Under the pieces are notes generated by a model that was not told where the DNA came from, ran no database searches, and was given only the letters and a program-made list of their open reading frames with translations. A stretch of DNA of 64,000 nt from Angiostrongylus vasorum (Eukaryota > Nematoda > Chromadorea > Rhabditida > Metastrongylidae): assembly GCA_018806985.1 (NCBI GenBank), contig JADANN010000096.1, positions 5,001 to 69,000 of the forward strand, given 5' to 3'. The number at the start of each line of letters is the position of its first letter. The first letter of the stretch is position 1. Of this stretch, positions 8,754 through 34,951 are shown piece by piece. Both the position numbers and the translations under genes were made by a program.

Positions 8754-8958
8754 TCATTTGGCTAACGCTTTGACGATTTCGTCTTGCTCAGAGCCGTTGA
8801 TCCGAATCGATGGTCCAAAGACATTCCCCTTCGCTGTCGTATCCAGCCGAATCTTCTTCAGTGAACACCGCACGAAAGAGGCATGCTCACGCTGCAGTGC
8901 TCTTTTATACAGGGCGGTTAATGTTGGCAAAGATTGTCCATTGACAATAATTCGTTAA
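8754..8958 (-). pseudogene. Orphan coding-like fragment, related to 60.7 kb exon
   Basis: Minus-strand open stretch RIIVNGQSLPTLTALYK, SFVRCSLKKIRLD, SIRINGSEQDEIVKALAK then TGA. A stop lies directly before its first conserved residue and no acceptor fits, so it looks broken. A further open stretch at 8,562-8,643 (AMTVLFQLMAETDFRIKKA, after CTTTAG) may belong to the same ancient gene. Confidence 0.35.
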
Positions 8959-9199
8959 AAAGACTATGGAAACTAGTCGTTCATAAGGACGTTGTTTTCA
9001 ACAAAATTCTCTCCTAATGTGCTTGGCATATAGAAGAATACCCTTGCGATAACTACAAGATGCATTTCGAGGGACTTAAAACTTGTTGGAACTCCACTAG
9101 TTCCTTAAAAAGGAAGTAAACACCGTGTCTATACCGGTGGTATCCAAGTAGAGAAGGAGATTGGAGATTGATTCCAATACAACACTGTGAACACAAGAC

Positions 9200-11823: not shown

Positions 11824-12105
11824 GTATTATTACACGACGTCATCGGCCTGGCCGAGACGAGACGACACCACCTATTCAACGCCGTCTATAATACCGGCGA
11901 AGAACTGTTCCTTGGTACATGCGACAATAGAGGAGCCGGCGGTGTCGGCGTTCTCACCAACACGAGTTTGTCCATGAACATCGATTCATTCGAACAACTT
12001 ACAACCCGGATCGGACGTTTATGATCAAAAAGGCGTGGATCAATACCAGCTTTGACAATCTTCGCCGTTTACGCGCCGACATCAAACTTTGACGGAGAAG
12101 AAGTC
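11619..12105. repeat. RTE-A endonuclease fold-back (about 200 bp arms, 77 bp loop)
   Basis: Positions 11,901-12,105 are the reverse complement of about 11,619-11,823, both from the RTE endonuclease start. The non-mirrored 77 bp between them encodes the element's earlier residues (DVIGLAETRRHHLFNAVY on the plus strand). The right end of this fold-back is exactly the left border of the giant inverted repeat. Confidence 0.85.
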
Positions 12106-12179
12106 CAGTAAATATTAAATTAACAAAACGAACAGGTGGGAAATAAAGTGTGAGGACAGCCTAGTTTCAACTGCAGCTT

Positions 12180-12300
12180 CAGCTCAACTGTGTGCTATGC
12201 CGATTTGTGTTGGGCAAATCACTCCTGTTGACGTATGGTTTCTGATAGCAGCACGAAGGCAAAAACACGCCTGAGAACTGAGGCCTGAATTCAGTGGTAA
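12180..12300 (+). repeat. SINE-C head fragment in left arm (mirror 33,040-33,162)
   Basis: Head module with CTTCAGCTCAACTGTG and CACTCCTGTTGACG only. In the right arm the same fragment is minus-strand and leads into a family-C tail across the palindrome border. Confidence 0.55.
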
Positions 12301-12309
12301 TTTTTCTAA

Positions 12310-13810
12310 CAAGTAGCCAGCTTTGTTAGCTGAATAGCGCGTAGTCCAGTTGGTGTTGGCTATTGTGAAATTACTGGGGCCCGCAAGATCTATAATCAGA
12401 AATCGAGGCCTATAAATGAAAAGCTGTAATCCTTGTTATTGTCTTGTCAGCAATGATGGCAATGGTCCTCCCGGTACTCCATTTCCAATGACATAGACAA
12501 ACTCAAATCTCTAAAATCCTGCCTTGTATAGAGTACAACAAATACGTAATTTATAACCTACGAACAAATTAAGGTCTTTCCTTATTGTCAAATAATTTTT
12601 TCAGAATTAGTATGACCCCCCTGGTCACAAAAGGAACTCAAGATATTTTTTCCACAATTTTTTCTCAAAGAACGTATAAATTATAAAGTTTTCTTGCCTT
12701 TTAGATGACTTCAAATGAAGAGCTTTCAAAACAAATCGACATCGAAATTGTGTGCAAGTGTTTGGTGGCACTTTCAAAGATAGCATTACCGTCGGTTAAC
12801 CAACAAAGTCCAGAATGGACAATCCACTGTCATTTTCTGTTTCGTGCGCTCTAGGAATTTTTTTCCTTACAGCACTATGTACATCCATTAGATAGTCAAT
12901 CAGGAGCAAGTTAAAATAACAAAAGTGAGATCGGATAGCCATTCTCTGCACTCAGTAATTTATTAAAATCCTTCCTTTGAAAGGCTGTTTGGCCGGTAAT
13001 CGAAATACATGCTGGCTTAATTGGACGTAGTACTGCGCAGTAAATAGTGGCGCACGTATCATTTACACCTAAGGAACCAAAGAAAAAGATTCGAAAATTC
13101 TGTAGCCCAGCAGCACACGAAACATTGCTCGTATTCCATTCAGAGAGCCATGAAAAACCATGTATGTGGGTTATACCGGTATTGGGCAAGCAATTTACTG
13201 AATATAGTGTCCTACAATAAGTCTGAGAAGAATTAGTGGAAAGATGATTAGTAAACCTACAGTTGCGGTACAGTGGATATAACTGGTACCTATAAATGTG
13301 CTGTATTCACAAAGGAATTGGGAAACGAGTGAGCTCCGAATCTGAGCCTAGGCACACAGTGAAGGCGGCAACTTTATTTTGTTTGCAACAGTAACCAACG
13401 AATTGAGCGATTTTGTTTATTCCTCGGCAAAATACAGCCAACGTAACAATTGGTACCATGGTTAGCTATTTCTGGTGCTTAAAGCTCTTCTTAACTGATG
13501 CGAGCCAAGCAGAGGTTGTCACGGATTGTCAGAGGTGGGCGAGAATCTGGACGCCACACGCAAAATGTCCTTTCATCAATTTGACAATTGTATTTGCAGG
13601 TGCAATGTTGAATTATTAATATTCTGTAGATGGTGTTTGCTCTTCAAGGAGAATATTAAAACGAGAAGAAAACGTTCCTGTGCTATGATTATCTTCCCAC
13701 TGATTTACTGTCAGTTTTTTAAAAGCAGTTAGAAAGGCTTTCCGGGAACCTATCTCGGCAGGTCAAACACGTTGCGTGACGACCAAACTGGTGATGGTGG
13801 TCATAGTCAA
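12310..13810. other. Unassigned unique sequence in left arm (mirror 31,530-33,030)
   Basis: No repeat or domain recognised. A 92-codon minus-strand open frame at 12,911-13,189 is preserved in both arms but has no recognisable similarity. Confidence 0.3.
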
Positions 13811-13814
13811 TCGT

Positions 13815-13990
13815 GAAAACTCCAGTGGAAAGATACGATGCTCAGTGAGTCCCAGTAGCGACTAGAGCCCACTGGACTACTCCTGCATGTGATAGGGAGA
13901 AATGGAAAATTTATGGGCTCCCGCATGAGTTAGTCGACGTTCAAAGGAAGGACAGGTGATACGGGTGATCTCGGCACCAATGACGGCGTG
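13815..13990 (+). mobile_element. RTE-A 3' fragment (left arm; mirror 31,350-31,530)
   Basis: Short degraded piece of the RTE-A C-terminal end. It resembles the stretch from the KxRYDARRVPRAS region to the WxxLARDRxKW region of better copies. Present in both arms. Confidence 0.5.
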
Positions 13991-14756
13991 TTCTCTTTCA
14001 GCGTAGCTATCACAAAACGCCCGATATGCATTCTGGACAATCCACATGATAGAAGGAAAATGACGCATTCAGCCCAAGCCTTTTTTGCATCACGGATACC
14101 ATCTCGTATCTAAGAGCATTTGAAGAAGCGGGATTTTCCTGGACAGAACATGATGGGGTCAGCTACTTTATCGCACATGTATATCGTATATGTTTGCATC
14201 TGCCGTTCCTGCGATGGAGATTTAAAAAAATGCTTAGTTTAAAATAGCCCATCGAGAGAAAATTATTGTATAAAAATGGCTTTCATTCCACTATTGTGGT
14301 TCATGGTTCCGCATATCAGGCAAGTCCAAAGCTTTCGAAATTGCCTGTGAAGAAGAATGAAGTGTGACAAAAAGCTGAGCTGAGATAAAATATTGAACTG
14401 GCTTTCACTCGTAGAGAAAATGGGCACCTGTACTTTGTCGGCAAACATATTACTAAGTTGACTGGGAGGGTAAAAACACTGACTGAAATTCGTCTATGGA
14501 CCCCCTGAAAGGGATTATGCAGTTCAAATATGCATTCACACTCCTCCGATGTCATAGCGATTTAAAATGAGAACCAATCAATTGGCTGCCTAATTACAGA
14601 TCAGTGAACTCGAACGACAAAGGTTTTTTGTACAACTCAAACTGCCCAATAGATTTTTTTCCTTGTCTATGTTCACCACAACTGCAAAAGGTGCTGCTGG
14701 AAATCTCTATGCGGTAAATTAAACAACCAAAAAGAAAGTCAGTCGTATATGACGCG

Positions 14757-15940
14757 TCATTCGACCTGTTTTGCGAAGAAATTTGGATTCGAGTCGTTCT
14801 TATCTAACTTGATCAAGCTCATTATGACGAAGACATGATATTAGAGGGTTGTTCACAACCACGAACTGAGATCAAGCGTCTCTATGCGAACTTTTACATG
14901 CCTTAATTGAGTGAACACTTTATTTCAACAAAAGTGCTCAACAGAAAAAGATGGTGCTAGCAGAGACTAGTGTGATATCTGGTCCGTTGTGGAGAGCTAG
15001 CAGAGACTAGCATGATGACGGGTCCGTTGGGGGCTAGACGATGGCTTTCATTCCGTTGCTTGCACGAGAGCCACTGTAATTATAACACTTAGTCATCAAA
15101 GAATCTTGTCAAAAATGCAACTTTTTGGAAAACAAACCTTTCTAGCTCTTCGAGCCTTGAAAGGATGTACTTCAGTGCGACTGAACAAACGGCTGCGAAA
15201 GCCATCAAGACGTTAGTGGTGAGTGGATGCCTTCTCGTGTCTGAAAAGTTTCATGGTGTAGAAATTCTAAATCGCTACAACTATCCTTTTTATACTTCTA
15301 GAAATAACCGCCGTTGTTTAACGAGACACCTTAGCAGATGAGAAACCCACCTTAGTGTGAAGTTGGTCCAGAACATATTCCAGAGGATGCGCTAGAATTG
15401 AGCAAAGTCTAACTCTCAGCTCTTTAAATACCCACCATTTGATAACGTGTTGTTGTTTTCTTCATTACATGTTTGCGTGCTATAACTCGCTTATCAAATC
15501 TTACCATATGCAACTCGAGCTAGTCGACGTGTGAAGTGGTTGAGTTTATGCCAGAGGCGGATAAGAAATTTTTGTTCGGATAATAATATTACTCGTTCGC
15601 TCTCCGGAAGAAGCGGTTCAAGCAGTCGGCAGAGCAGAGACAATATTCTATAATGGTAACGTAACGTGCAGGAGTTCACTCAACATCCGATCCACGTAAT
15701 AAATATAGCAAGAAGACTTTCCATCTTCGTCATCCAAGCAACATAATCACTGCGCAGTTTGATGGGTCCATTTGCTTCATTGTTTGCTATTACGACAATG
15801 GCAACTTCTCTCACCAACTTTCGCTTTATAACTTTTCAACTGATCGCCTTACTATCCCTAGAAATTCTCCTTCACGCTCCCTTTTCTTTAGTGCTTCTCG
15901 GAGGAAATTATTTTTTCAAACCTCTGGGAACGGCAAGTTG
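14757..15940 (-). repeat. R2 dispersed repeat, left arm (mirror 29,398-30,580)
   Basis: Unclassified repeat of about 1.2 kb. Three independent loci are seen: this pair, 33,830-34,780, and 61,790-62,815. No coding domain or terminal structure was recognised. Confidence 0.6.
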
Positions 15941-16110
15941 GTGCTAGAATTGTTTGGAAGGATAGCAGCACTGGCTGGATACATCGGTAGTCCACCGCGA
16001 GTAATTATAAAGGCCAGATATGCATTCAATCACCTCCAACGATTATTAATGCAGTGGAATGCATGGTGCATCCCCACGGACTGATCCTTGGAGCACGCCT
16101 TATTCTTTAT
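15931..16110 (+). mobile_element. 5'-truncated SINE-A in left arm (mirror 29,228-29,407)
   Basis: Lacks the tRNA-like head and starts in the central block (GGCAAGTTGGTGCTAGA). Body and T-rich tail are present. Confidence 0.65.
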
Positions 16111-16712
16111 CTTTTATAGACCTTGGAACAGGTGAATAGTGATGAATACAAGAATGGTTTGAACGAACAGTACGTTTTGATGAGCACTGAATAATATAGA
16201 AGAGACTACTGTATGTTGCATTTCACTGTTATTCAACCCTTTGAGTAATTCTCTCGTAAAATAAATTTCAACAGCAAAAACAATGCGGTGGTTAAAAGGC
16301 TTTGTGCAATATTTGTACATTAGATCACATGAAAACCATTGGACGACACGAGCTTTATCCCTTATAACTTGTATGCAATCGAGGTTTCACTGTTTTCGAA
16401 TAGCCTTACATAACGGGCAAACAAAGATGACCTCATCTAAACGTTCCGAATCCTCTCTGAAGCGTTCTCACCGCAAAATCGTTGAATAAAGGCTTTTAAA
16501 CGAACTTCGAATGATTTGAGCATATTATAGGAGCAACCTTATCATAAGAAATACTGTTATTGGCATTAGATTTTCACGCTGTGAACAGACGGCCTTTATT
16601 GACCCAAAATCGTTTCGACTGTCGAAAAAAAACGAGTAGAAATTGCACATGTATTCTGTTTAGGAAAACACCGAAAAGTACCTTAGCTGCAGCACTATGT
16701 TAATACAGATTT

Positions 16713-16886
16713 CTTTCTTGACATACCTGCTTTGCACTCGGTCCACGAATATGCTCCTGAATGGTTACACTCTGAACAAAAGAAAGTCTCGGATCAAAAC
16801 CAAGGCTTTGAATACTGCATTGTATGTGATTCGAAGGTCGCTCCTTACTATGAAAGCCAGCAACTAAATCAATCAACAGCTTAATC
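16713..16886 (+). CDS. Putative terminal exon in left arm (mirror 28,451-28,625 minus)
   Basis: After TTAATACAG a frame is open to TAA, with ALHSVHEYAPEWLHSEQKK and YCIVCDSKVAPYY. In the right arm the run of A near EYAPEW is one base longer, breaking the frame, so only one arm reads through. Family not recognised. Confidence 0.3.
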
Positions 16887-17109
16887 TAATTATCTCGATC
16901 GGAGAAAGAAAGACGTAGTAGGTGATTTTTGAGCCATATGTTCTCTACCTGCAAAGTTAGAGGCGGCTTTTCAAAGTAAAAGCCTTGACACAGAAATAGC
17001 ACCATTATCGAGGAAAAAAACCATACCGGTAAAACAGGCAATAACTGATTTCAAAAACCCCACAAACGGGGCTCGACTTCAAATGTGTGGTGAAAGATAA
17101 GTTGAATAG

Positions 17110-17390
17110 AGATAAAGGATAAAGGCCTCAGTGTTGGTCAATCCGTAAGGCATGCCCCCACGCATTCGACTTCACCAAACATCGTTGGAGGTCACTGAAT
17201 GCATATCTGGCCTTTACAATGACTCGCAGTGCCCCTCTGATGTAACGAGCCAATGCTGTCATCCTCTTAGACAAGTCTGGCACCAATTTGCCGACCACAG
17301 ATGGATGGAGAGCTTGTTGAGCTGCGGGCGCGGAGATTGACTCCATGCGTGGATCGCATGGCGCCTTCGACTACTGCGCCGCACGCGCTC
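17110..17390 (-). mobile_element. SINE-A in left arm (mirror 27,947-28,227)
   Basis: Minus-strand full-length SINE-A with A box GCGGCGCAGTAGTCG and tail TTTATCCTTTATC. The mirror copy in the right arm is on the plus strand. Confidence 0.75.
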
Positions 17391-17689
17391 TAGTGAGGGA
17401 GCAGTGGTCGACACATTTGTGACGTTATGTCATCAAAAAAATTTTTTCTTATCCTTCTTTATGTTGCAAATAAGATACCGATATTTCCGAATTCATTCTC
17501 AATGATAAAGACTGCAAGATTCATTAGCACCATTTGAGGTGAATGAATCACATTTGGCCTGTACGTTGACTTTCGGCGGCCTATTACCCTTACCTTAGTG
17601 TATCAATTCAGTGCTTTTATGTTCTCAGACAAGTCCGTACGAATTTGCTGAGCTCACAACTTGATTTTTTGGAAATGTTTTTTGTCCGT

Positions 17690-20600
17690 TTTGCTGGATT
17701 TCCTCGAGGTAGTTTCTGCAACCAGTTTTCCACGGCGGACCCTCATATGAGTGATCTTAAGCCGGTTAGTAGCGAGGCTACGTGGCGCGTCCCCAGGTGG
17801 TGGATTCGGCGTTAATCGTTGACGAAAAGCGACCGTATGTTTCCTTGAACGCTGGTGGATCCAAGGGAAGGACTCTATGTTTTTGCTGCGCCGATTTGGC
17901 ACATACTTTCTATGTTTACGAGGCGTAGTCATGCACACGTATGTGGTTGCGTTCTAGTTTGTGCGGATTGTTTTCTACGAGTCAATTTGCCCATAGGTCT
18001 GCAATCAAGTGACAGGGAAGTATATGGGAGGCGGTTAGGAGTCGCCTCCAACGAATAAGCTCCATGTCCACTCTGGTCGAGCATGGCAAGCTACCCGTCA
18101 GTACACCCAGCCCCCCACGTTCAGAGTCCAGCAAGCTGTAGGCGGTTATCAAAAAAGCTAAAAAACAGTAAAAGACACGATCGTCATTCCGCAGACCCCC
18201 GAAAGATCCTTCCATTTGGCAGCGTTGGGTAGGACGAGTACGGAGAGGCTGCTATAATCTCAGGACCAATGGAAGCTGCCTGAATTACAAAGACCTATGG
18301 TGACGATCTGTACCTAAAATGCGTACACTTGCATCTGTGTCTTCAGTAAAAGACTTGATCATGAAAGCGAGAAGGATAAGGTACGACGTGATCGGCCTGG
18401 CCGAGACGAAACGACGCCACCCATTCAACGCCGTCTATGACGCGGAGAACTGTTTCTCGGAACATGCAACAGTAGAGGTTTTGACATCGTCGACGTTCTT
18501 TTCAACATGAGTTTGTCCATGAACATCGATTGCTTCGAACAATTAACGACCCGAATCGGGCATTTACAGATGAAGAAGTGTAGACCAATACCGGCTTTTG
18601 ACAATCTTCGTCGTTTACGCGCTGACATAAAACTGTGACGAAGAAGAAGTCGAAGCGTTCTATATGACATGGAGAAGTTCTACAGAGAAGACCATACATT
18701 TTTCAAGTCCGTCATTGGAGATTTTTACGGCAAGATTGGACCAAGAAGGAAGTCTGAAGGACGTCACATTGGGACCCACGGATTAGAATGGAAAGAACCG
18801 GGTGAGCGGCTCTCTGAGTTTATCATGACGATCATGACCATCAATGGTAACCCACAATTCCAGAAACCCTATCCTCAACGCGCGACGTGGGAGTCTCCTA
18901 GTGGAAGGTACCGTAACGAAATAGATCACATCATAGTAAACCGAGGGTTTTGCCTAACCGATGTCGCTGTTGTCCAAAAAATTCTACACAGTGTCAGACC
19001 ACCGCCTGCTTCGTGGAAGATTCCATTTCTCGCAGAAAGGAGAAAAAAGCCGCTAAATTCAAAAACCAATGTCCCAGAACCATCATAAACTGGGACTTAT
19101 TCAATTCATTAGTCGGTTTCTGGGATGATGCCGTTGTCTATAACATCGACGAGGAATACGATCGGCTCATTCGACATCTTCGCGTTTGCGCTATGAAAGC
19201 TGAGAGTTCGAAAGTCACCAGGAAAGGTCTATCTCCAGAAACTGTTCTGCTGATACGCCAGCGTGGAATCACACGAGCTGCCAGTAACCGCAAACTAACG
19301 TCCGAGCTTGCAAAACAGTGAAGACAGGCCATGAAAGAAGATCTTAAAGAGAGAAGAGCAGCAGTAGTGCTCAAAGGTGCAGAGACTGGGAAAAAGCATT
19401 CGCATAGCCCACCGAAACTTCGCCAATTACAAGGCCGTGATGATTGCACTCCGACGCCCAGACGGGACAGTCACAGCGTCCAGAAAGCCAATGAGAAAAC
19501 CATTTACGAATATTATTCAGATCTTTTCGATGTCCACGTCCACCTTACGTCATTTGAAATAAAAGAGGATGGGTATGTTGTACCACCGGTTCTCCCTTCC
19601 AAAATCCGGAAAGCCATTTCGTCGGTGAAAAATCGAACAACACCAGGTCCGGACAGGATAAGACCAGAACACCTGAAGAACCTTCCGCCAGTCCTCTTAA
19701 ACACACTGACTCGGTTCTTCACAAGTTACCTGTCAGAATGAAAGATACCTACTCGGCAGAAGACCAGCAATACCTAGTTCAAGAAGGGTAACCTCCACGA
19801 TAATTCCAACTATTGCCCAATCCCATTGCCGTCTGTGGTCCACTAGCTTTCCACTTGAGTCATTCTAAACGAGATTGCCAGAACATTGGACGAAGGACAG
19901 CTATGCAAGCAAGTACGGTTTCAAAAAGGATTCAGTACGATTGACCACATCCTTACCACAACAAGACTCATTAAAGTATCGGAAGACTACAAAAGACCAC
20001 TCTGCCTCACTTTCATCGACCTAAGAAAAGCTTCTGACACAACTGAGATAGAAGCAGTCATGGAATCCCTGGACAGCCAGGATGTCTGTACTCAGTATAT
20101 AAAGATTCTTTATGAGTTATTCAAAAATTTCACAAGCAAGATGTCACCATTCTATAACGGCATCGTTGTCGACGTCAAAAGAAGGGTTAGGCAAGAGAGT
20201 ACCATCTTGCCAAATTTGTAAACTACCACCCTTGAAAAAGTAATACTGGGATGGGACAACATGGGGAGTGAAAATCGATCATCGGCAATTACACCATCTT
20301 CGCTTTACTGATAACATCGTTCTTGTAACACCAAGTATGAGCCAAGCAGAGCAGATGCCAACCGACTTTGATAACGCTCATGGAAAGATTGGTATTCGAC
20401 TATGCCCCATTCACGCTGATTGGGATCGATTATCTTCGAATGCTCCACGTAAGCATTACTAGGTCGGGAAATTAGCATGGTAGGGCACCAGCTCCAGAGT
20501 TCAGCAGGACGAAACGAGCGGCTTGAGCAGCTTACGAGAACATCGAGGATATAGTGAAGAGAACAAAGAACACCCAGGTCCGTGCCTACCTTTTCGACTC

Positions 20601-21060
20601 CACGATTCCTCCTGCCTTAACCTTCAGTCAGCGTTGTTGGAGGTGCAGTTGAAAGGACGACATCACGAGTATCCCGTGTCACACAAGTGAGGGAAAGATT
20701 CGAACCTCCGACCTACATCAGCGATCAAAAATTACAGACGGCGTTCTCTACGTTAAACGGTCGAAGATAAGGTGGGCCGGACACGTGCGTATAAACGTCA
20801 ACCGATGGACAAGGGCTATTAGTGGCCAGATTCCTTGGAACCATGGCAGCAAGTTAACTGGTCGGATGGCCAGACTTCTTTACAAGAACGCTAGACGAAA
20901 GATATGGTGCTCAAGGGGTCCCTAGAGCAAGCAGAACCCACTAGACTACTCTTCCTCGCGGCAAGACGAAATGTGAAGATTTACTGGATCTCACTGGAGT
21001 CACTCGACGGTCATCGGAACGACAGATGGTACAGAGGAATAGACAACAAGGCTGAGGGGT
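17690..21060 (+). mobile_element. RTE-A LINE in left arm (decayed)
   Basis: Plus-strand RTE-A with the same leader as the 53.9 kb copy (about 17,690-18,330), endonuclease from about 18,390 (VIGLAETKRRHPFNAVYD) to 19,080, linker and RT from 19,140 to 20,460, and C-terminal part to about 21,050. The catalytic box reads LRFTDNIVLV, so two acidic-box positions are altered. Frameshifts and stops are frequent. The mirror copy in the right arm is 24,280-27,650 and differs mainly by homopolymer indels that change where the open frames break. Confidence 0.88.
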
Positions 21061-21263
21061 GTGCTGGCAGTTTTATTTGCTAGGTGTGCTTGTTAAGTTT
21101 CACGAGGGTTCTGCCATATTTGACGCAGAACATTTCTGGACGAGTTTTACAGTCGTTGTCCATTTCTGCACAATTCAGAGTAAAGGCGGTTCAGTCTTAG
21201 CTGAATTTGAGCTTTCCTAGATATATCTTGTTTTGCATGCGTGAGCTATCTAACGTCAGTCAT

Positions 21264-21638
21264 CCATGTCGTTGACTTGACATCCCGAGGAATCCAGTCA
21301 CTAGCGGCTCTTGTCCATCGGTTGTCGTTCATACACATTGCATGTCCGGCCCACCTTATCTTCTACAGTTTCGCGTATACAGAACGACATCTTTGATTTT
21401 TGGTCGTTTATTCAGGTCGGGGCTTCGAGTCTTTTCCCACTTGTGTGACACGAGATACTCATACCATCATCCTTTCAACTGCGCGTCCAATAACGCTGAG
21501 TGAGCTTTCGTGCTGCTTACGGAGAGAACAGGTTTCTGACGCATGCGTTAAGGCAGGAAGAATCGTGGAGTGGAAAAGGTGGGCACAGACCTGGGTGTTC
21601 TTTCTTCTCTTCACTATATCCTCGATGTTCTTGCAAGC
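21264..21638 (-). mobile_element. RTE-A RT C-terminal fragment at inner end of left arm
   Basis: Minus-strand fragment mirroring 23,699-24,075. It is cut off at 21,638 where it meets plus-strand endonuclease sequence of the spacer element, forming a tail-to-head junction inside RTE sequence. Confidence 0.85.
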
Positions 21639-23698
21639 GTTCTCGTCAACAGCACGAGGTTGTCCACGAACATTGATTCATTTAAACAACTAAAAACCCG
21701 AGTGGTCGTTTACGATTGAAGAGATGTGGATCAATACCGGCCTTGACAATCTTTGCCGTTTACGCATCGACATCAATCTATGACGAAGAGGAGGTCGAAG
21801 CGTTCTATACGGATTTCGAGAAGCTCTAGAGAGAAGACAGAAGCTCCTCAAGGTCACCACTGGCAATTTCAACGCTATGGTTGAACCAAGAAGAACGTCT
21901 GAGGAATGTCACCTTGGGACCACGGATTAGAACGGCAAGAACAGGACGAGCGGCTGTCTGAGTTTATCATGACGACCATTCGATGGTAACTCACAGTTCC
22001 AGAAACACTGCTATCAAACCTGCAAACAGGAATCTCCCATTGGAGAGTATCATAACGAAGTAGACCGCATCATAATTAATGGAAGTCTTTTCCTAATTGA
22101 TGTCGTTGTTGTTCAAAAATTCTACGCTGGGCCAAAACATTGCTTCTTCCGTACGTGGATTGACTTCTCGCGCAAAAAGAGAGAAAGCCGAAAAGATCAA
22201 AGAGCCAAATCCTAAAATCATTATACACCGAAATTTCTTTAGATCACTGTCCTAAGAAGAGGCCATTACTAAAAGCATCGACTACTCCATCGGCAGATTC
22301 AGCATCTTTACATCCGCGCTTTCAAATCCCATAATCCGGAAGTCTCCATGAGAAGCATTCAAGCTGATACATCAAAGTCGAATTGCACGAGCTACAGGCA
22401 ACGACAAACTCACGTCCGAACTAAACAATGCAGACAGGCGATAAAAGAAAATCTTTGAGAGAGAAGAGCAGCAATTATGGTCAGAGCTGCAGAGGCTGGG
22501 AAAAGGATTCGAAAACTCAACCGAAGCTTCACCAATAGCAAAACCAAGATGGTTGCACTTTGAAGCCAAGACGGAACAGTTACAGCGTTCAGAAAGCAAT
22601 GGAGAAAATCATTCACGATTAATTCTTAGATCTCTTCAATAGCCACGTCCTTCTTCCCTCATATGAAACGAACAAGTATGGATATGTCGTAACACCGGTC
22701 CTTCCTTCCGAAATCCGACATGCTATTTCGTCCGTAAAAAATCGAACACCGCCAGGTTCGGATAGGATAAGATCTGAACACCTAAAGAACCTTCCGCCAG
22801 TCCTCATAAACACACTAGCTCAGCTCTTCACAAGTTACCTGTCAGAATGAAAGGTACCTACTCGGCAGAAGACCAGCAATACCATGTTCAAGAAGGGTAA
22901 CCTCCACGATAATTCCAACTATTGCCCAATCCCATTGCCGTCTGTGGTCCACTAGCTTTCCACTTGAGCCATTCTAAACGAGATTGCCAGAACATTGGAC
23001 GAAGGACAGCTATGCAAGCAAGTACGGTTTCAAAAAAGGATTCAGTACGATTGACCACATCCTTACCACAACAAGACTCATTAAAGTATCGGAAGACTAC
23101 AAAAGACCACTCTGCCTCACTTTCATCGACCTAAGAAAAGCTTCTGACACAACTGAGATAGAAGCAGTCATGAAAGCTCTGGATAGTGCGGGAGTGCCTA
23201 GTCAGTACACAAGGACTCTTCAAGATTCTTCGAGAGCTGTATAAAAATTTCTCAACCAACATATTAATATTTCACAACGACATTAACATCGACGTCAAAA
23301 GAGAGGTTAGGCAAGGTGACACCATCTCGCCAAAATTATTTACCGCCTCATTCGAGAATGTCACGCGAACACTGGAATTTCAGTACATGGGAGTGAAAAA
23401 CGATGGCCACCAATTATATCAACTTGGCTTTGCTGACAACATTGTTCTTATAACACGAAACACTAGCCAGACGGAACGAATGTTTGCCGACTTCTATAAA
23501 ACCTGTGAGAAGATCGGTCTACGACTAAATCTCACATAAACGATGTTCATGAGGAACGGATTGGTTTCGTATGCCCCATTCACGCTGAACGAGATGAATA
23601 TGCCGGAATGCTCCAGTTACGTATATCTAGGTCGCGAAATCAACATGATGTACGACATAGCTCCAGAGCTGAGCAGAAGGAAACGAGCGGTTTGGGCA
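21639..23698. other. Spacer of the giant inverted repeat
   Basis: About 2.06 kb that is not mirrored. It is filled by the endonuclease and reverse transcriptase parts of a plus-strand RTE-A copy that continues into the right arm. A non-mirrored centre of this size is not what a simple hairpin read or missed sequencing adapter would give. Confidence 0.9.
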
Positions 23699-24065
23699 GC
23701 TTGCAAGAACATCGAGGATATAGTGAAGAGAAGAAAGAACACCCAGGTCTGTGCCCACCTTTTCCACTCCACGATTCTTCCTGCCTTAACGCATGCGTCA
23801 GAAACCTGTTCTCTCCGTAAGCAGGACGAAAGCTCACTCAGCGTTATTGGACGCGCAGTTGAAAGGATGATGGTATGAGTATCTCGTGTCACACAAGTGG
23901 GAAAAGACTCGAAGCCCCCGACCTGAATAAACGACCAAAAATCAAAGATGTCGTTCTGTATACGCGAAACTGTAGAAGATAAGGTGGGCCGGACATGCAA
24001 TGTGTATGAACGACAACCGATGGACAAGAGCCGCTAGTGACTGGATTCCTCGGGATGTCAAGTCA
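21639..24065 (+). mobile_element. RTE-A LINE spanning the spacer into the right arm
   Basis: Plus-strand RTE-A beginning abruptly inside the endonuclease at 21,639 (leader and first residues missing). It runs through an endonuclease remnant (21,690-22,160), the linker, and RT from about 22,690 to 23,540, with LGFADNIVLI in place of FADD, then a C-terminal part that crosses into the right arm. It loses similarity after about 24,065, before the usual LINE end. Stops and frameshifts show it is dead. Confidence 0.85.
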
Positions 24066-24279
24066 ACGACATGGATGACTGACGTTAGATAGCTCACGCA
24101 TGCAAAACAAGATATATCTAGGAAAGCTCAAATTCAGCTAAGACTGAACCGCCTTTACTCTGAATTGTGCAGAAATGGACAACGACTGTAAAACTCGTCC
24201 AGAAATGTTCTGCGTCAAATATGGCAGAACCCTCGTGAAACTTAACAAGCACACCTAGCAAATAAAACTGCCAGCACAC

Positions 24280-27200
24280 CCCTCAGCCTTGTTGTCTATT
24301 CCTCTGTACCATCTGTCGTTCCGATGACCGTCGAGTGACTCCAGTGAGATCCAGTAAATCTTCACATTTCGTCTTGCCGCGAGGAAGAGTAGTCTAGTGG
24401 GTTCTGCTTGCTCTAGGGACCCCTTGAGCACCATATCTTTCGTCTAGCGTTCTTGTAAAGAAGTCTGGCCATCCGACCAGTTAACTTGCTGCCATGGTTC
24501 CAAGGAATCTGGCCACTAATAGCCCTTGTCCATCGGTTGACGTTTATACGCACGTGTCCGGCCCACCTTATCTTCGACCGTTTAACGTAGAGAACGCCGT
24601 CTGTAATTTTTTGATCGCTGATGTAGGTCGGAGGTTCGAATCTTTCCCTCACTTGTGTGACACGGGATACTCGTGATGTCGTCCTTTCAACTGCACCTCC
24701 AACAACGCTGACTGAAGGTTAAGGCAGGAGGAATCGTGGAGTCGAAAAGGTAGGCACGGACCTGGGTGTTCTTTGTTCTCTTCACTATATCCTCGATGTT
24801 CTCGTAAGCTGCTCAAGCCGCTCGTTTCGTCCTGCTGAACTCTGGAGCTGGTGCCCTACCATGCTAATTTCCCGACCTAGTAATGCTTACGTGGAGCATT
24901 CGAAGATAATCGATCCCAATCAGCGTGAATGGGGCATAGTCGAATACCAATCTTTCCATGAGCGTTATCAAAGTCGGTTGGCATCTGCTCTGCTTGGCTC
25001 ATACGTGGTGTTACAAGAACGATGTTATCAGTAAAGCGAAGATGGTGTAATTGCCGATGATCGATTTTCACTCCCATGTTGTCCCATCCCAGTATTACCT
25101 TTTTCAAGGGTGGTAGTTTACAAATTTGGCAAGATGGTACTCTCTTGCCTAACCCTTCTTTTGACGTCGACAACGATGCCGTTATAGAATGGTGACATCT
25201 TGCTTGTGAAATTTTTGAATAACTCATAAAGAATCTTTATATACTGAGTACAGACATCCTGGCTGTCCAGGGATTCCATGACTGCTTCTATCTCAGTTGT
25301 GTCAGAAGCTTTTCTTAGGTCGATGAAAGTGAGGCAGAGTGGTCTTTTGTAGTCTTCCGATACTTTAATGAGTCTTGTTGTGGTAAGGATGTGGTCAATC
25401 GTACTGAATCCTTTTTGAAACCGTACTTGCTTGCATAGCTGTCCTTCGTCCAATGTTCTGGCAATCTCGTTTAGAATGACTCAAGTGGAAAGCTAGTGGA
25501 CCACAGACGGCAATGGGATTGGGCAATAGTTGGAATTATCGTGGAGGTTACCCTTCTTGAACTAGGTATTGCTGGTCTTCTGCCGAGTAGGTATCTTTCA
25601 TTCTGACAGGTAACTTGTGAAGAACCGAGTCAGTGTGTTTAAGAGGACTGGCGGAAGGTTCTTCAGGTGTTCTGGTCTTATCCTGTCCGGACCTGGTGTT
25701 GTTCGATTTTTCACCGACGAAATGGCTTTCCGGATTTTGGAAGGGAGAACCGGTGGTACAACATACCCATCCTCTTTTATTTCAAATGACGTAAGGTGGA
25801 CGTGGACATCGAAAAGATCTGAATAATATTCGTAAATGGTTTTCTCATTGGCTTTCTGGACGCTGTGACTGTCCCGTCTGGGCGTCGGAGTGCAATCATC
25901 ACGGCCTTGTAATTGGCGAAGTTTCGGTGGGCTATGCGAATGCTTTTCCCAGTCTCTGCACCTTTGAGCACTACTGCTGCTCTTCTCTCTTTAAGATCTT
26001 CTTTCATGGCCTGTCTTCACTGTTTTGCAAGCTCGGACGTTAGTTTGCGGTTACTGGCAGCTCGTGTGATTCCACGCTGGCGTATCAGCAGAACAGTTTC
26101 TGGAGATAGACCTTTCCTGGTGACTTTCGAACTCTCAGCTTTCATAGCGCAAACGCGAAGATGTCGAATGAGCCGATCGTATTCCTCGTCGATGTTATAG
26201 ACAACGGCATCATCCCAGAAACCGACTAATGAATTGAATAAGTCCCAGTTTATGATGGTTCTGGGACATTGGTTTTTGAATTTAGCGGCTTTTTTTCTCC
26301 TTTCTGCGAGAAATGGAATCTTCCACGAAGCAGGCGGTGGTCTGACACTGTGTAGAATTTTTTGGACAACAGCGACATCGGTTAGGCAAAACCCTCGGTT
26401 TACTATGATGTGATCTATTTCGTTACGGTACCTTCCACTAGGAGACTCCCACGTCGCGCGTTGAGGATAGGGTTTCTGGAATTGTGGGTTACCATTGATG
26501 GTCATGATCGTCATGATAAACTCAGAGAGCCGCTCACCCGGTTCTTTCCATTCTAATCCGTGGGTCCCAATGTGACGTCCTTCAGACTTCCTTCTTGGTC
26601 CAATCTTGCCGTAAAAATCTCCAATGACGGACTTGAAAAATGTATGGTCTTCTCTGTAGAACTTCTCCATGTCATATAGAACGCTTCGACTTCTTCTTCG
26701 TCACAGTTTTATGTCAGCGCGTAAACGACGAAGATTGTCAAAGCCGGTATTGGTCTACACTTCTTCATCTGTAAATGCCCGATTCGGGTCGTTAATTGTT
26801 CGAAGCAATCGATGTTCATGGACAAACTCATGTTGAAAAGAACGTCGACGATGTCAAAACCTCTACTGTTGCATGTTCCGAGAAACAGTTCTCCGCGTCA
26901 TAGACGGCGTTGAATGGGTGGCGTCGTTTCGTCTCGGCCAGGCCGATCACGTCGTACCTTATCCTTCTCGCTTTCATGATCAAGTCTTTTACTGAAGACA
27001 CAGATGCAAGTGTACGCATTTTAGGTACAGATCGTCACCATAGGTCTTTGTAATTCAGGCAGCTTCCATTGGTCCTGAGATTATAGCAGCCTCTCCGTAC
27101 TCGTCCTACCCAACGCTGCCAAATGGAAGGATCTTTCGGGGTCTGCGGAATGACGATCGTGTCTTTTACTGTTTTTAGCTTTTTTGATAACCGCCTACAG

Positions 27201-27650
27201 CTTGCTGGACTCTGAACGTGGGGGGCTGGGTGTACTGACGGGTAGCTTGCCATGCTCGACCAGAGTGGACATGGAGCTTATTCGTTGGAGGCGACTCCTA
27301 ACCGCCTCCCATATACTTCCCTGTCACTTGATTGCAGACCTATGGGCAAATTGACTCGTAGAAAACAATCCGCACAAACTAGAACGCAACCACATACGTG
27401 TGCATGACTACGCCTCGTAAACATAGAAAGTATGTGCCAAATCGGCGCAGCAAAAACATAGAGTCCTTCCCTTGGATCCACCAGCGTTCAAGGAAACATA
27501 CGGTCGCTTTTCGTCAACGATTAACGCCGAATCCACCACCTGGGGACGCGCCACGTAGCCTCGCTACTAACCGGCTTAAGATCACTCATATGAGGGTCCG
27601 CCGTGGAAAACTGGTTGCAGAAACTACCTCGAGGAAATCCAGCAAAACGG
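24280..27650 (-). mobile_element. RTE-A LINE in right arm (mirror of 17.7-21.1 kb)
   Basis: Reverse-complement twin of the left-arm element. One endonuclease/linker frame (26,670-26,017, 217 residues) is open here but split in the left arm, because a run of A in the RRKKAAKFKN region is one base longer here (about 26,290 versus 19,046). Confidence 0.88.
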
Positions 27651-27946
27651 ACAAAAAACATTTCCAAAAATCAAGTTGTGAGCTCAGCAAATTCGTACGG
27701 ACTTGTCTGAGAACATAAAAGCACTGAATTGATACACTAAGGTAAGGGTAATAGGCCGCCGAAAGTCAACGTACAGGCCAAATGTGATTCATTCACCTCA
27801 AATGGTGCTAATGAATCTTGCAGTCTTTATCATTGAGAATGAATTCGGAAATATCGGTATCTTATTTGCAACATAAAGAAGGATAAGAAAAAATTTTTTT
27901 GATGACATAACGTCACAAATGTGTCGACCACTGCTCCCTCACTAGA

Positions 27947-28227
27947 GCGCGTGCGGCGCAGTAGTCGAAGGCGCCATGCGATCCACGCATGGAGTCAATC
28001 TCCGCGCCCGCAGCTCAACAAGCTCTCCATCCATCTGTGGTCGGCAAATTGGTGCCAGACTTGTCTAAGAGGATGACAGCATTGGCTCGTTACATCAGAG
28101 GGGCACTGCGAGTCATTGTAAAGGCCAGATATGCATTCAGTGACCTCCAACGATGTTTGGTGAAGTCGAATGCGTGGGGCATGCCTTACGGATTGACCAA
28201 CACTGAGGCCTTTATCCTTTATCTCTA
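27947..28227 (+). mobile_element. SINE-A in right arm
   Basis: Mirror twin of the 17,110-17,390 copy: tRNA-like head on the left, T-rich tail on the right. Confidence 0.75.
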
Positions 28228-28874
28228 TTCAACTTATCTTTCACCACACATTTGAAGTCGAGCCCCGTTTGTGGGGTTTTTGAAATCAGTTATTGCCTGT
28301 TTTACCGGTATGGTTTTTTTCCTCGATAATGGTGCTATTTCTGTGTCAAGGCTTTTTACTTTGAAAAGCCGCCTCTAACTTTGCAGGTAGAGAACATATG
28401 GCTCAAAAATCACCTACTACGTCTTTCTTTCTCCGATCGAGATAATTAGATTAAGCTGTTGATTGATTTAGTTGCTGGCTTTCATAGTAAGGAGCGACCT
28501 TCGAATCACATACAATGCAGTATTCAAAGCCTTGGTTTTGATCCGAGACTTTCTTTTGTTCAGAGTGTAACCATTTCAGGAGCATATTCGTGGACCGAGT
28601 GCAAAGCAGGTATGTCAAGAAAGAAATCTGTATTAACATAGTGCTGCAGCTAAGGTACTTTTCGGTGTTTTCCTAAACAGAATACATGTGCAATTTCTAC
28701 TCGTTTTTTTTTCGACAGTCGAAACGATTTTGGGTCAATAAAGGCCGTCTGTTCACAGCGTGAAAATCTAATGCCAATAACAGTATTTCTTATGATAAGG
28801 TTGCTCCTATAATATGCTCAAATCATTCGAAGTTCGTTTAAAAGCCTTTATTCAACGATTTTGCGGTGAGAACG

Positions 28875-28950
28875 CTTCAGAGAGGATTCGGAACGTTTAG
28901 ATGAGGTCATCTTTGTTTGCCCGTTATGTAAGGCTATTCGAAAACAGTGA
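28875..28950 (+). CDS. Putative short exon with CxxC in right arm (mirror in left arm)
   Basis: After CGCTTCAG the frame reads EDSERLDEVIFVCPLCKAIR and then stops. It may be a zinc-binding fragment. Not joined to other exons. Confidence 0.2.
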
Positions 28951-29227
28951 AACCTCGATTGCATACAAGTTATAAGGGATAAAGCTCGTGTCGTCCAATG
29001 GTTTTCATGTGATCTAATGTACAAATATTGCACAAAGCCTTTTAACCACCGCATTGTTTTTGCTGTTGAAATTTATTTTACGAGAGAATTACTCAAAGGG
29101 TTGAATAACAGTGAAATGCAACATACAGTAGTCTCTTCTATATTATTCAGTGCTCATCAAAACGTACTGTTCGTTCAAACCATTCTTGTATTCATCACTA
29201 TTCACCTGTTCCAAGGTCTATAAAAGA

Positions 29228-29407
29228 TAAAGAATAAGGCGTGCTCCAAGGATCAGTCCGTGGGGATGCACCATGCATTCCACTGCATTAATAATCGTTG
29301 GAGGTGATTGAATGCATATCTGGCCTTTATAATTACTCGCGGTGGACTACCGATGTATCCAGCCAGTGCTGCTATCCTTCCAAACAATTCTAGCACCAAC
29401 TTGCCGT
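29228..29407 (-). mobile_element. 5'-truncated SINE-A in right arm
   Basis: Mirror twin of 15,931-16,110. Confidence 0.65.
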
Positions 29408-30580
29408 TCCCAGAGGTTTGAAAAAATAATTTCCTCCGAGAAGCACTAAAGAAAAGGGAGCGTGAAGGAGAATTTCTAGGGATAGTAAGGCGATCAGTTG
29501 AAAAGTTATAAAGCGAAAGTTGGTGAGAGAAGTTGCCATTGTCGTAATAGCAAACAATGAAGCAAATGGACCCATCAAACTGCGCAGTGATTATGTTGCT
29601 TGGATGACGAAGATGGAAAGTCTTCTTGCTATATTTATTACGTGGATCGGATGTTGAGTGAACTCCTGCACGTTACGTTACCATTATAGAATATTGTCTC
29701 TGCTCTGCCGACTGCTTGAACCGCTTCTTCCGGAGAGCGAACGAGTAATATTATTATCCGAACAAAAAATTTCTTATCCGCCTCTGGCATAAACTCAACC
29801 ACTTCACACGTCGACTAGCTCGAGTTGCATATGGTAAGATTTGATAAGCGAGTTATAGCACGCAAACATGTAATGAAGAAAACAACAACACGTTATCAAA
29901 TGGTGGGTATTTAAAGAGCTGAGAGTTAGACTTTGCTCAATTCTAGCGCATCCTCTGGAATATGTTCTGGACCAACTTCACACTAAGGTGGGTTTCTCAT
30001 CTGCTAAGGTGTCTCGTTAAACAACGGCGGTTATTTCTAGAAGTATAAAAAGGATAGTTGTAGCGATTTAGAATTTCTACACCATGAAACTTTTCAGACA
30101 CGAGAAGGCATCCACTCACCACTAACGTCTTGATGGCTTTCGCAGCCGTTTGTTCAGTCGCACTGAAGTACATCCTTTCAAGGCTCGAAGAGCTAGAAAG
30201 GTTTGTTTTCCAAAAAGTTGCATTTTTGACAAGATTCTTTGATGACTAAGTGTTATAATTACAGTGGCTCTCGTGCAAGCAACGGAATGAAAGCCATCGT
30301 CTAGCCCCAACGGACCCGTCATCATGCTAGTCTCTGCTAGCTCTCCACAACGGACCAGATATCACACTAGTCTCTGCTAGCACCATCTTTTTCTGTTGAG
30401 CACTTTTGTTGAAATAAAGTGTTCACTCAATTAAGGCATGTAAAAGTTCGCATAGAGACGCTTGATCTCAGTTCGTGGTTGTGAACAACCCTCTAATATC
30501 ATGTCTTCGTCATAATGAGCTTGATCAAGTTAGATAAGAACGACTCGAATCCAAATTTCTTCGCAAAACAGGTCGAATGA
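29398..30580 (+). repeat. R2 dispersed repeat, right arm
   Basis: Shared markers with other copies include GAAGTTGCCATTGTCGTA near 29,530, TGATAAGCGAGTTATAGCAC near 29,850, and AAATAAAGTGTTCAC near 30,410. Confidence 0.6.
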
Positions 30581-33229
30581 CGCGTCATATACGACTGACT
30601 TTCTTTTTGGTTGTTTAATTTACCGCATAGAGATTTCCAGCAGCACCTTTTGCAGTTGTGGTGAACATAGACAAGGAAAAAAATCTATTGGGCAGTTTGA
30701 GTTGTACAAAAAACCTTTGTCGTTCGAGTTCACTGATCTGTAATTAGGCAGCCAATTGATTGGTTCTCATTTTTAAATCGCTATGACATCGGAGGAGTGT
30801 GAATGCATATTTGAACTGCATAATCCCTTTCAGGGGGTCCATAGACGAATTTCAGTCAGTGTTTTTACCCTCCCAGTCAACTTAGTAATATGTTTGCCGA
30901 CAAAGTACAGGTGCCCATTTTCTCTACGAGTGAAAGCCAGTTCAATATTTTATCTCAGCTCAGCTTTTTGTCACACTTCATTCTTCTTCACAGGCAATTT
31001 CGAAAGCTTTGGACTTGCCTGATATGCGGAACCATGAACCACAATAGTGGAATGAAAGCCATTTTTTATACAATAATTTTCTCTCGATGGGCTATTTTAA
31101 ACTAAGCATTTTTTAAATCTCCATCGCAGGAACGGCAGATGCAAACATATACGATATACATGTGCGATAAAGTAGCTGACCCCATCATGTTCTGTCCAGG
31201 AAAATCCCGCTTCTTCAAATGCTCTTAGATACGAGATGGTATCCGTGATGCAAAAAGGCTTGGGCTGAATGCGTCATTTTCCTTCTATCATGTGGATTGT
31301 CCAGAATGCATATCGGGCGTTTTGTGATAGCTACGCTGAAAGAGAACACGCCGTCATTGGTGCCGAGATCACCCGTATCACCTGTCCTTCCTTTGAACGT
31401 CGACTAACTCATGCGGGAGCCCATAAATTTTCCATTTCTCCCTATCACATGCAGGAGTAGTCCAGTGGGCTCTAGTCGCTACTGGGACTCACTGAGCATC
31501 GTATCTTTCCACTGGAGTTTTCACGATTGACTATGACCACCATCACCAGTTTGGTCGTCACGCAACGTGTTTGACCTGCCGAGATAGGTTCCCGGAAAGC
31601 CTTTCTAACTGCTTTTTAAAAACTGACAGTAAATCAGTGGGAAGATAATCATAGCACAGGAACGTTTTCTTCTCGTTTTAATATTCTCCTTGAAGAGCAA
31701 ACACCATCTACAGAATATTAATAATTCAACATTGCACCTGCAAATACAATTGTCAAATTGATGAAAGGACATTTTGCGTGTGGCGTCCAGATTCTCGCCC
31801 ACCTCTGACAATCCGTGACAACCTCTGCTTGGCTCGCATCAGTTAAGAAGAGCTTTAAGCACCAGAAATAGCTAACCATGGTACCAATTGTTACGTTGGC
31901 TGTATTTTGCCGAGGAATAAACAAAATCGCTCAATTCGTTGGTTACTGTTGCAAACAAAAATAAAGTTGCCGCCTTCACTGTGTGCCTAGGCTCAGATTC
32001 GGAGCTCACTCGTTTCCCAATTCCTTTGTGAATACAGCACATTTATAGGTACCAGTTATATCCACTGTACCGCAACTGTAGGTTTACTAATCATCTTTCC
32101 ACTAATTCTTCTCAGACTTATTGTAGGACACTATATTCAGTAAATTGCTTGCCCAATACCGGTATAACCCACATACATGGTTTTTCATGGCTCTCTGAAT
32201 GGAATACGAGCAATGTTTCGTGTGCTGCTGGGCTACAGAATTTTCGAATCTTTTTCTTTGGTTCCTTAGGTGTAAATGATACGTGCGCCACTATTTACTG
32301 CGCAGTACTACGTCCAATTAAGCCAGCATGTATTTCGATTACCGGCCAAACAGCCTTTCAAAGGAAGGATTTTAATAAATTACTGAGTGCAGAGAATGGC
32401 TATCCGATCTCACTTTTGTTATTTTAACTTGCTCCTGATTGACTATCTAATGGATGTACATAGTGCTGTAAGGGAAAAAAATTCCTAGAGCGCACGAAAC
32501 AGAAAAATGACAGTGGATTGTCCATTCTGGACTTTGTTGGTTAACCGACGGTAATGCTATCTTTGAAAGTGCCACCAAACACTTGCACACAATTTCGATG
32601 TCGATTTGTTTTGAAAGCTCTTCATTTGAAGTCATCTAAAAAGGCAAGAAAACTTTATAATTTATACGTTCTTTGAGAAAAAAATTGTGGAAAAAATATC
32701 TTGAGTTCCTTTTTGTGACCAGGGGGGTCATACTAATTCTGAAAAATTATTTGACAATAAGGAAAGACCTTAATTTGTTCGTAGGTTATAAATTACGTAT
32801 TTGTTGTACTCTATACAAGGCAGGATTTTAGAGATTTGAGTTTGTCTATGTCATTGGAAATGGAGTACCGGGAGGACCATTGCCATCATTGCTGACAAGA
32901 CAATAACAAGGATTACAGCTTTTCATTTATAGGCCTCGATTTCTGATTATAGATCTTGCGGGCCCCAGTAATTTCACAATAGCCAACACCAACTGGACTA
33001 CGCGCTATTCAGCTAACAAAGCTGGCTACTTGTTAGAAAAATTACCACTGAATTCAGGCCTCAGTTCTCAGGCGTGTTTTTGCCTTCGTGCTGCTATCAG
33101 AAACCATACGTCAACAGGAGTGATTTGCCCAACACAAATCGGCATAGCACACAGTTGAGCTGAAGCTGCAGTTGAAACTAGGCTGTCCTCACACTTTATT
33201 TCCCACCTGTTCGTTTTGTTAATTTAATA

Positions 33230-33545
33230 TTTACTGCCTACTCTTTTTAATGGCATGGTATATTGCGAAATACAACTTCAGTAATGCAGCGATGTTTTGC
33301 GAAACTCCAGACCGCAGGTGTCTGCGGTGGAGAACGAACTCGCTATTATCCTTTCCGGGGAGCAACGTGTTAACCACCACACTACGCGGAGAACTAGCTG
33401 GGAGACAGACGAAACGAACGACCAACATGGTGTGATGGTGAACGCGTTACTCTCCGAAAAGAGTAATAGAGCGTTCGTTCTCCACCGCAAACACCTGCGG
33501 TCCGGAGTTTTGCAAATGTCTCAACATCACTGAAGTTGTGTTCTT
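33230..33545. repeat. SINE-C fold-back pair
   Basis: A minus-strand tail plus middle (33,230-33,390) is followed directly by a plus-strand middle plus tail (33,400-33,540), making an inverted repeat of roughly 130 bp arms. It overlaps the outer border of the right arm of the giant inverted repeat. Confidence 0.75.
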
Positions 33546-33559: not shown

Positions 33560-33810
33560 AGAGTAACACCTGTATCGTCCGTCGACCCGTTGATCATTAA
33601 GTGACTCAGTGCACTTCCAGTGAATCCTCCATTTCTCCCTATCGCATGAATGAGTAATCCAGTGAGTTTTTCTCCCTTTAAAGAATCGTTGAGCACCGCA
33701 TCTTTCATTTTCCGTGAATAACTTTGACCATCAAGTCCTTTCCGCCCTTCCATCGGTTGTCGTTTACGCGCCCTACGTGACCGACCCATCTTACCATTTG
33801 CAATTTGGTG
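33560..33810 (-). mobile_element. RTE-A 3' fragment
   Basis: Minus-strand remnant of the RTE-A C-terminus just outside the right arm. It retains the WVGHVGRVNDNRW-like stretch and an ending like TGLLIHAIGRN, corresponding to the WATLARDR region. Confidence 0.65.
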
Positions 33811-33829
33811 AGAGGTTTGAAGAAATAGT

Positions 33830-34780
33830 TGAAGTGGCGAAGAAGACTAAAGATACGGATTTTTGCACCGCTGTTTAAACTACTGGTGAACGATTATACG
33901 AAAAAGCTGAAGGCATATTTTGATGAGTAGAAGTACTGGTCCCGCCCGCCTGAATAATGTCGCCTGTAGACGTTGTAGTACTTGGCTGGCGGCATTCATT
34001 CATTTCCTGATGAAAATTACTGTTGTTTTGGGATCGAGAGAACCCAGTGGAAAACGATGCTGTTTTTGGAGAACATTGGTGAAAACAGCGCGTGAGGGAA
34101 AATTCCTTGTGGCTTTGATTCCATCACTTAAAAAGTTACACGGCGAAAATAAGAGAAAGGAGTTGCCATTGTCGTATTAGTAAGCAATGAAGCAAGTCGA
34201 CACATCAAACTACGTAGTGATAATGTTGTTTCCATGACGGAAATGATGAGGTTTCCAGCTACCATTGCTTTTTGGTCTACTATCTTGCCTCTTGCTACCT
34301 ACCATTTATTATATAGGTCAGGTAATGAGTGAAGACCTGTGCGTTCCCATGATAGAACATTGTCATTGCTGTGCCGACTGTTTTGCCTGTTTCATCTAGA
34401 GAGAGAACATTCAGTATTACAATCCGCCTAAAACTTTCTCATGCACCTTTCACATGACTCAACCGCTTCACTCATCGAATAGCACGAGTTGCGTAAGATG
34501 AGTGTTGATAAGCAAGTTGAAACTCGTAAACACGTAGTAAAGAGAACAACAAAAACACTATCAAATGATGGGTAATTGATAATCCGTGATTGCATCAGTA
34601 GTTGGAGAAAAAATTTAGTGGGAGCGTCTCTGAAACGATATGGCCTGGAAAAAGCCCAGTCGGGAACTATGCACCTGTATGTTCCACTATTCGCTGTAAT
34701 TAGAAAAGCTGAACTATCACCACATCTCGTCATGATATGGAATTGATGACGAAACTTCTATATACTAACCATTTATGTTC
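33830..34780 (+). repeat. R2 dispersed repeat, 5' part
   Basis: Matches 29,400-30,070: GGAGTTGCCATTGTCGTATT near 34,160 and TTGATAAGCAAGTTGAAACT near 34,505. Confidence 0.6.
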
Positions 34781-34951
34781 AAAAATCTTCGAACCAAACA
34801 CCAAATTTCCTCCAGAAAGAAGGAGCTCGAGATTCTTCTCCATGAAGCTCGAGTTAAAATAGAAACCATGAACAGAGACACAAGTTCAGAGCGCGACAAG
34901 AATACATCCGAAATGAAAGATAGAGTTGAAGCACGAAAGAGGAATGACTAA
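34775..34951 (+). CDS. Small ORF, lysine/glutamate rich (58 aa)
   Basis: ATG to TAA, with RKKELEILLHEARVKIETMN and EMKDRVEARKRND. Strongly charged, heptad-like and probably helical. Immediately downstream of an R2 repeat. Could be a lone coiled-coil exon; no family recognised. Confidence 0.25.
   Translation: MFKNLRTKHQISSRKKELEILLHEARVKIETMNRDTSSERDKNTSEMKDRVEARKRND

Follow-up and report, generated by a model that had tools for sequence, protein, structure and literature searches.

A near-perfect 9.5-kb inverted repeat in the Angiostrongylus vasorum assembly: a probable recent fold-back or template-switch duplication

How do two stretches of 9.5 kb come to lie on one nematode contig as almost exact mirror images of each other? 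The question is raised by contig JADANN010000096.1 (C96; 253,303 bp) of Angiostrongylus vasorum, part of a 279.9-Mb assembly of 468 contigs (GCA_018806985.1). The sequence under study, C96:5001-69000 (64,000 nucleotides), is referred to as the window, and positions given without a contig name are positions within it. A preliminary description had claimed a giant near-perfect palindrome here and had offered three readings of it: a very recent inverted duplication, a gene-converted palindrome as on sex chromosomes, or an assembly error. The first is the best supported of the three, since the 9.5 kb contain only two substitutions that look true, the borders are sharp, and both new joins are on one arm. 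That the palindrome arose recently as an inverted segmental duplication, through fold-back or template-switch repair, is considered moderately probable on the evidence of the sequence, and that it is a real structure of some kind, as opposed to an artefact, is considered likely.

Two near-identical arms

The window was compared with itself by blastn, and the arms were then aligned directly to list their differences. Positions 23699-33236 match 21638-12106 in reverse at 99.686% over 9,549 columns, with 3 mismatches and 27 gap openings. The palindrome is thereby borne out, with arms and spacer within about 1 base of the sizes first claimed: the left arm measures 9,533 bp, the right arm 9,538 bp, and the spacer between them 2,060 bp, both arms being on C96. 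A near-perfect 9.5-kb inverted repeat is truly present in the assembled sequence. The longest unbroken identical run between the arms is 1,056 bp, and a chance origin is therefore out of the question. In 139 kb of C96 (partly N), the only inverted pairs of at least 93% identity and at least 100 bp are the palindrome itself and a further copy at C96:95-99 kb. The parts of the structure are as follows.

12106-21638, minus strand: left arm, apparently copied anew from the right arm in inverted orientation (99.69% reverse match; both borders are new joins)
21639-23698, no strand: spacer of 2,060 bp, the first part of the element RTE-A (from self-comparison; 98.6% copy at C96:97557-99285)
23699-33236, plus strand: right arm of 9,538 bp, apparently the ancestral copy (repeats unbroken through both borders)
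12877-17545, minus strand: low-copy core of the left arm (mirror at 27790-32461; 97.3% relative at C279:88272-92945, single copy there)

Direct alignment of the arms yields 30 differences, comprising 27 single-base gaps and 3 mismatches. Homopolymers of at least 3 bases hold 26 of the 27 gaps though they make up only 18% of arm bases (P = 1.4e-18), and one of the three mismatches is a shift between adjoining T and A runs; hence, two true-looking substitutions are left, at 20334 and 21512. Comparison of the left arm with its 97% relative on C279 gives a very different mixture: 99 substitutions, 15 homopolymer gaps, 4 other single-base gaps, and 5 longer gaps. Given that mixture, three or fewer substitutions among 30 differences would be expected with P = 1.5e-16, and the deficit implies that the differences between the arms are mainly homopolymer consensus errors (about 28 in 19 kb). 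The true divergence of the arms would thus be about 2 in 9,533. The mutation rate of C. elegans is 2.7e-9 per site and generation, at which two substitutions correspond to some 39,000 generations (95% Poisson range 4,700-140,000); the event could be younger still if both substitutions are errors. In its own right, the homopolymer variation between the arms points to roughly 1.5 consensus errors per kb, a level at which many frame breaks in the assembly may stem from sequencing errors.

A third copy is available for 18 of the 30 differences and lacking for the other 12. These copies place the substitution at 20334 on the right arm and that at 21512 on the left arm, and they assign 13 indels, 4 to the left arm and 9 to the right; three differences (13720, 14224, and 20239) are ambiguous.

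Arms that differ almost only in homopolymer length look as if both had been read from one stretch, and this speaks for an artefact, in which a fold-back chimeric library molecule or an amplification product was taken into the contig and a second false join attached it to the left flank. Such an artefact is possible, though doubtful. The left arm is not the poorly read one, as the 4 and 9 assigned indels attest; polishing may, however, have shared reads between the arms.

Borders and the direction of copying

The borders of the arms cut or cross repeats with many other copies, and these copies reveal which joins are new. The elements concerned are listed below.

21639-24061, plus strand: RTE-A, a 5′-truncated RTE-like non-long-terminal-repeat element that extends from the spacer into the right arm (self-alignments; RVT_1 domain at 23174-23536; 3′ end not exactly placed)
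24306-26955, minus strand: RTE-B, a second RTE-like element in the opposite orientation (self-alignments; left-arm mirror at about 18383-21032)
9223-11823, minus strand: RTE-L1, an RTE-like element in the left flank (alignments)
11834-12105, plus strand: RTE-L2, an RTE-like element of which the left arm leaves only the first 272 bp (matches to its copies stop at 12105, and the copies continue as RTE elsewhere)
33215-33542, no strand: a palindromic repeat resembling a miniature inverted-repeat transposable element (MITE), lying over the right outer border 33236/33237 (32 of 38 other listed places begin inside the arm)

At the right outer border, for which 40 of 7,310 candidates were scored and the first match per place was tallied, the 32 places that begin on the arm side include 12 reaching at least 15 bp into the arm and 20 beginning 3-12 bp inside it, the latter of which could reflect alignment overrun; the other 6 begin beyond the border. 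Three loci in this search also matched sequence further inside the arm, though less strongly. The right inner border (23698/23699) is likewise crossed by an unbroken repeat: C96:95502-99285 carries a copy of 21637-25339 at 98.2%-98.6%, colinear save for a 76-bp difference, and RTE-A runs through the border in it. As repeats pass through both borders of the right arm, both are old sequence. The copy at C96:95502-99285 (loci L025, L042, and L043) is itself inverted and repeats, some 66 kb away, the spacer together with the innermost 1.6 kb of the right arm.

The borders of the left arm behave differently. At the inner one (21638/21639), the C96 copy and five of seven further loci continue upstream as RTE where the window has the arm instead; the remaining two loci gave no alignment row. 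The dinucleotide GC stands just before this border in the closest copy and in three of the five loci, as it does in the source of the arm, and the other two differ; the inner new join (21638..21639), which links RTE-A to the inverted arm, thus has a microhomology of 2 bp. Of 38 other places listed for the left outer border (12105/12106), 36 stop within 3 bases of it (29 of them exactly) and two stop earlier; all five copies examined go on as RTE beyond 12105. RTE-L2 is joined to the inverted arm there (12105..12106) with 0 bp in common. Both new joins therefore lie on the left arm and mark it as the inverted copy of the right arm; to judge by these borders, right arm and spacer keep the ancestral order.

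A copy with two new ends might also be a mobile element inserted in inverted orientation. The core of the left arm does have a 97% copy on another contig (C279), and RTE sequence flanks the arm on both sides. The C279 copy, however, has other ends, covering 12877-17545 only; the border sequences contain no target-site duplication at 12105 and 21639; no transposase domain was found in the scanned frames; and no other locus has both arm ends among the matches listed. Insertion of this kind is scarcely credible.

The elements RTE-A and RTE-B are inverted neighbours and mostly 55%-85% alike per 50 columns, yet near-identical over a tract of 348 bp (RTE-A 22825-23172; RTE-B 25277-25623). The tract was apparently passed from one inverted element to the other by gene conversion or a template switch. 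As its RTE-B part is present in both arms, the exchange between RTE-A and RTE-B predates the palindrome.

That such an exchange has occurred here lends some support to the idea that the palindrome is older and that gene conversion has kept its arms alike, as does the near-identity of the arms beside the divergence of about 2%-3% seen in relatives on C279 and at C96:95-99 kb. Conversion should leave divergence rising towards the borders. There is only one difference in the outer 500 columns and two in the inner 500, against 1-6 per 1,000 along the arm, and identity does not drop at the borders; one recent event explains all the true-looking differences, and with only two substitutions their spectrum says little either way. 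Gene conversion is thus not needed to account for the identity of the arms, and an origin of this kind is improbable. The comparison with sex chromosomes drawn in the preliminary description found no positive support: besides the lack of a fall-off at the borders, the arms have no recognised gene, and there is no indication that the contig belongs to a sex chromosome. That reading was set aside for want of evidence; relatives of Angiostrongylus are XX/XO. Gene-converted palindromes of sex-limited chromosomes, as described in PMC3403216, resemble the present structure in having long near-identical arms around a spacer; the present arms differ from them in the absence of recognised genes and of any sign of long upkeep by conversion.

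Origin of the inverted copy

A fold-back or template-switch duplication could have proceeded as follows. A break or stalled fork to the left of the spacer would expose a 3′ end in RTE-A, which would fold back and prime at a GC dinucleotide about 2 kb inwards. Copying outwards from there for 9.5 kb would make the left arm, and the new end would then be sealed, with no base in common, to another broken end in the truncated RTE-L2 of the left flank. RTE-A would lose its 5′ end and RTE-L2 its remainder in the process, and some two substitutions would have gathered since.

Several features of the locus agree with such an event. The spacer is single copy between the two arms, its 2,060 bp having no second copy beside them and a 98%-99% relative 66 kb away on the contig. 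The join between spacer and copy has short inverted homology, which at 2 bp (GC) is a weak feature. Sequence may have been lost from beside the spacer, in that RTE-A is without its 5′ end and RTE-L2 without its remainder; the unrearranged locus was not among the scored candidates. In human inverted duplications, spacers are mostly a few kb and 13 sequenced junctions have microhomology of 2-8 bp, seven of them of 2 bp (PMC3907307). These human fold-back cases share with the present locus an inverted copy, a single-copy (disomic) spacer (here of about 2 kb), the 2-bp inner microhomology, and an apparent distal loss; they differ in being very large, mostly with terminal deletions, and found in patients, whereas the copy described here is 9.5 kb long, interstitial, from a nematode, and known from an assembly alone (PMC3907307).

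Other points count against this origin. At least 2 bp was present in 134 of 1,000 simulated junctions (PMC3907307), and 2-bp microhomology by itself is therefore weak support. The outer join has no common base at all, and both joins, read from the assembled contig, may not exist in the worm. Searches with the arm, the spacer, and both outer borders found neither the lost sequence nor an unduplicated allele among the scored candidates; on C279 and at C96:95502-99285 only parts are present, as diverged copies, and not that allele. Nor does the order of segments on C279 fit a simple ancestral order, since the relative of the left flank lies there on the inner side of the arm and here lies outside it. 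A search with the right flank (33600-42600) gave, besides itself, only known-looking repeats at 81% or less, and was not used.

Short inverted repeats are also the substrate of origin-dependent inverted-repeat amplification (ODIRA), in which a template switch at very short inverted repeats produces an inverted copy, as may have happened here (PMC10766183). The repeats in ODIRA lie within about 100 bp of each other (PMC10766183); those considered here are 2,060 bp apart, and ODIRA fits less well than fold-back. Among nematodes, a segmental duplication on chromosome V of C. elegans offers a parallel as a recent duplicate of 99.7% identity (PMC2728738). That pair is tandem, head to tail, 108 kb long, and has 26 genes per copy, in contrast to an inverted 9.5-kb copy with no recognised gene; its presence is polymorphic by polymerase chain reaction (29 of 76 strains) (PMC2728738).

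Inverted chimeras do arise in long-read libraries and in amplified DNA (PMC12870357, PMC13141652, PMC13265396, PMC6218980), and their frequency gives weight to the artefact introduced above: they made up 0.18%-7.33% of nanopore reads in one study (PMC13141652) and about a third of mitochondrial reads after amplification in another (PMC13265396). As here, the arms of such artefacts differ only by errors of the read type (PMC12870357, PMC13141652, PMC6218980, PMC13265396). The left arm also lies 17.1 kb from the contig end, where, it may be supposed, a few bad reads can extend a contig.

The artefact would nonetheless need two false joins. Its loop of 2,060 bp would also be long, against a turn within 200 bp in the definition of one fold-back detector (PMC12870357). 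Amplification chimeras in general may form longer loops. A chimeric flank should, moreover, recur at its true place. A search with window positions 1-9200 (40 of 23,328 candidates scored) found no other place above 89% identity. The outer end, unlike that of the artefacts, thus joins another flank for which the scored places include no near-identical duplicate, although a misjoined contig end would be single copy too. On C279, the relatives of the arm and of part of the left flank are 1.3 kb apart, and flank and arm thus look like old neighbours, albeit in a different order. The available tests lean against an assembly error without being conclusive.

If a fold-back or template-switch duplication is the true origin, the locus offers a fresh, junction-resolved example in an RTE-rich nematode genome, with donor, loop, and both joins readable. 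If the structure is instead false, it shows that a spurious palindrome of 21 kb can enter a long-contig assembly, whose remaining inverted repeats then need checking. Either outcome leaves the general view unchanged, as the type of event is already known. No function is evident for the palindrome. It might be conceived as a working hairpin locus, whose 9.5-kb double-stranded RNA with RTE-like and MITE-like sequence would feed small RNAs of the RNA interference pathway directed against those repeats, the duplication having been kept for silencing; this is very unlikely.

Sequence content of the arms and flanks

The arms had been described as mostly retroelements. This holds for the inner part of each arm (on the left, from about 17.7 kb inwards) but not for the outer 5.4 kb or so, which is largely low copy with some short repeats. 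In the search of the assembly with the arm, 40 of 13,433 candidates were scored, and copy counts are thus lower bounds; among those scored, 4.67 kb of the outer part has one other long relative (97%, on C279), and 1.3 kb of that 4.67 kb has a 92% relative on C441. In the left flank, a segment at 4072-5362, composed of about 1 kb and a MITE-like repeat, is matched at 88.7% by C279:85710-87007 (L047), 1.3 kb from the 97% relative of the arm.

The Pfam scan covered 19 open frames of the window and 4 of the RTE copy L027. No Pfam match was found in the 11 frames scanned of the 35 listed at 12.1-18.3 kb (at least 55 amino acids), and the statement that the palindrome has no recognisable intact gene holds to that extent. 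Among the scanned frames, only RVT_1 exceeded the curated cut-off, at L027:3039-3611 and at 23174-23536; below it were two further RVT_1 matches, an endonuclease family, and a phage family, the last taken as chance. The endonuclease family was Exo_endo_phos_2, which reached 17.3 bits at 11217-11672 against a cut-off of 27.4; an endonuclease domain upstream of the reverse transcriptase is a feature of RTE-type elements.

The reverse transcriptase domain (PF00078) was found with E = 9.4e-12 in L027 and E = 6.1e-8 in the spacer. Among the best 120 of 817 matches, the L027 piece is closest to proteins of Angiostrongylus cantonensis (up to 85% identity), with A. costaricensis, Ancylostoma, Necator, and Haemonchus also present. 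The elements at the joins thus have a reverse transcriptase domain akin to that of nematode RTE elements, as PF00078 and the Angiostrongylus protein relatives indicate. They are presumably RTE, a label that we take from their likeness to a transposon group of A. cantonensis. In that genome (282-283 Mb; 41.7% GC), RTE-RTE is the most abundant transposon group (PMC6871775). The GC content of the window is 42.5%.

In the left flank, RTE-L1 and RTE-L2 face each other head to head; some 10 bp separate their 5′ ends, and together they form a small palindrome of 87.7% at 11619-12105. The MITE-like repeat at 33269-33542 is 74% identical to its own reverse complement and has relatives in the window near 36.8, 46.0-47.1, 57.5, and 62.1 kb as well as at many genomic places. 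The window contains no Rfam match and no tRNA gene. Its tandem repeats amount to three short rows, none of them at any border, and an AG dinucleotide repeat of 29 units occupies 44060-44117.

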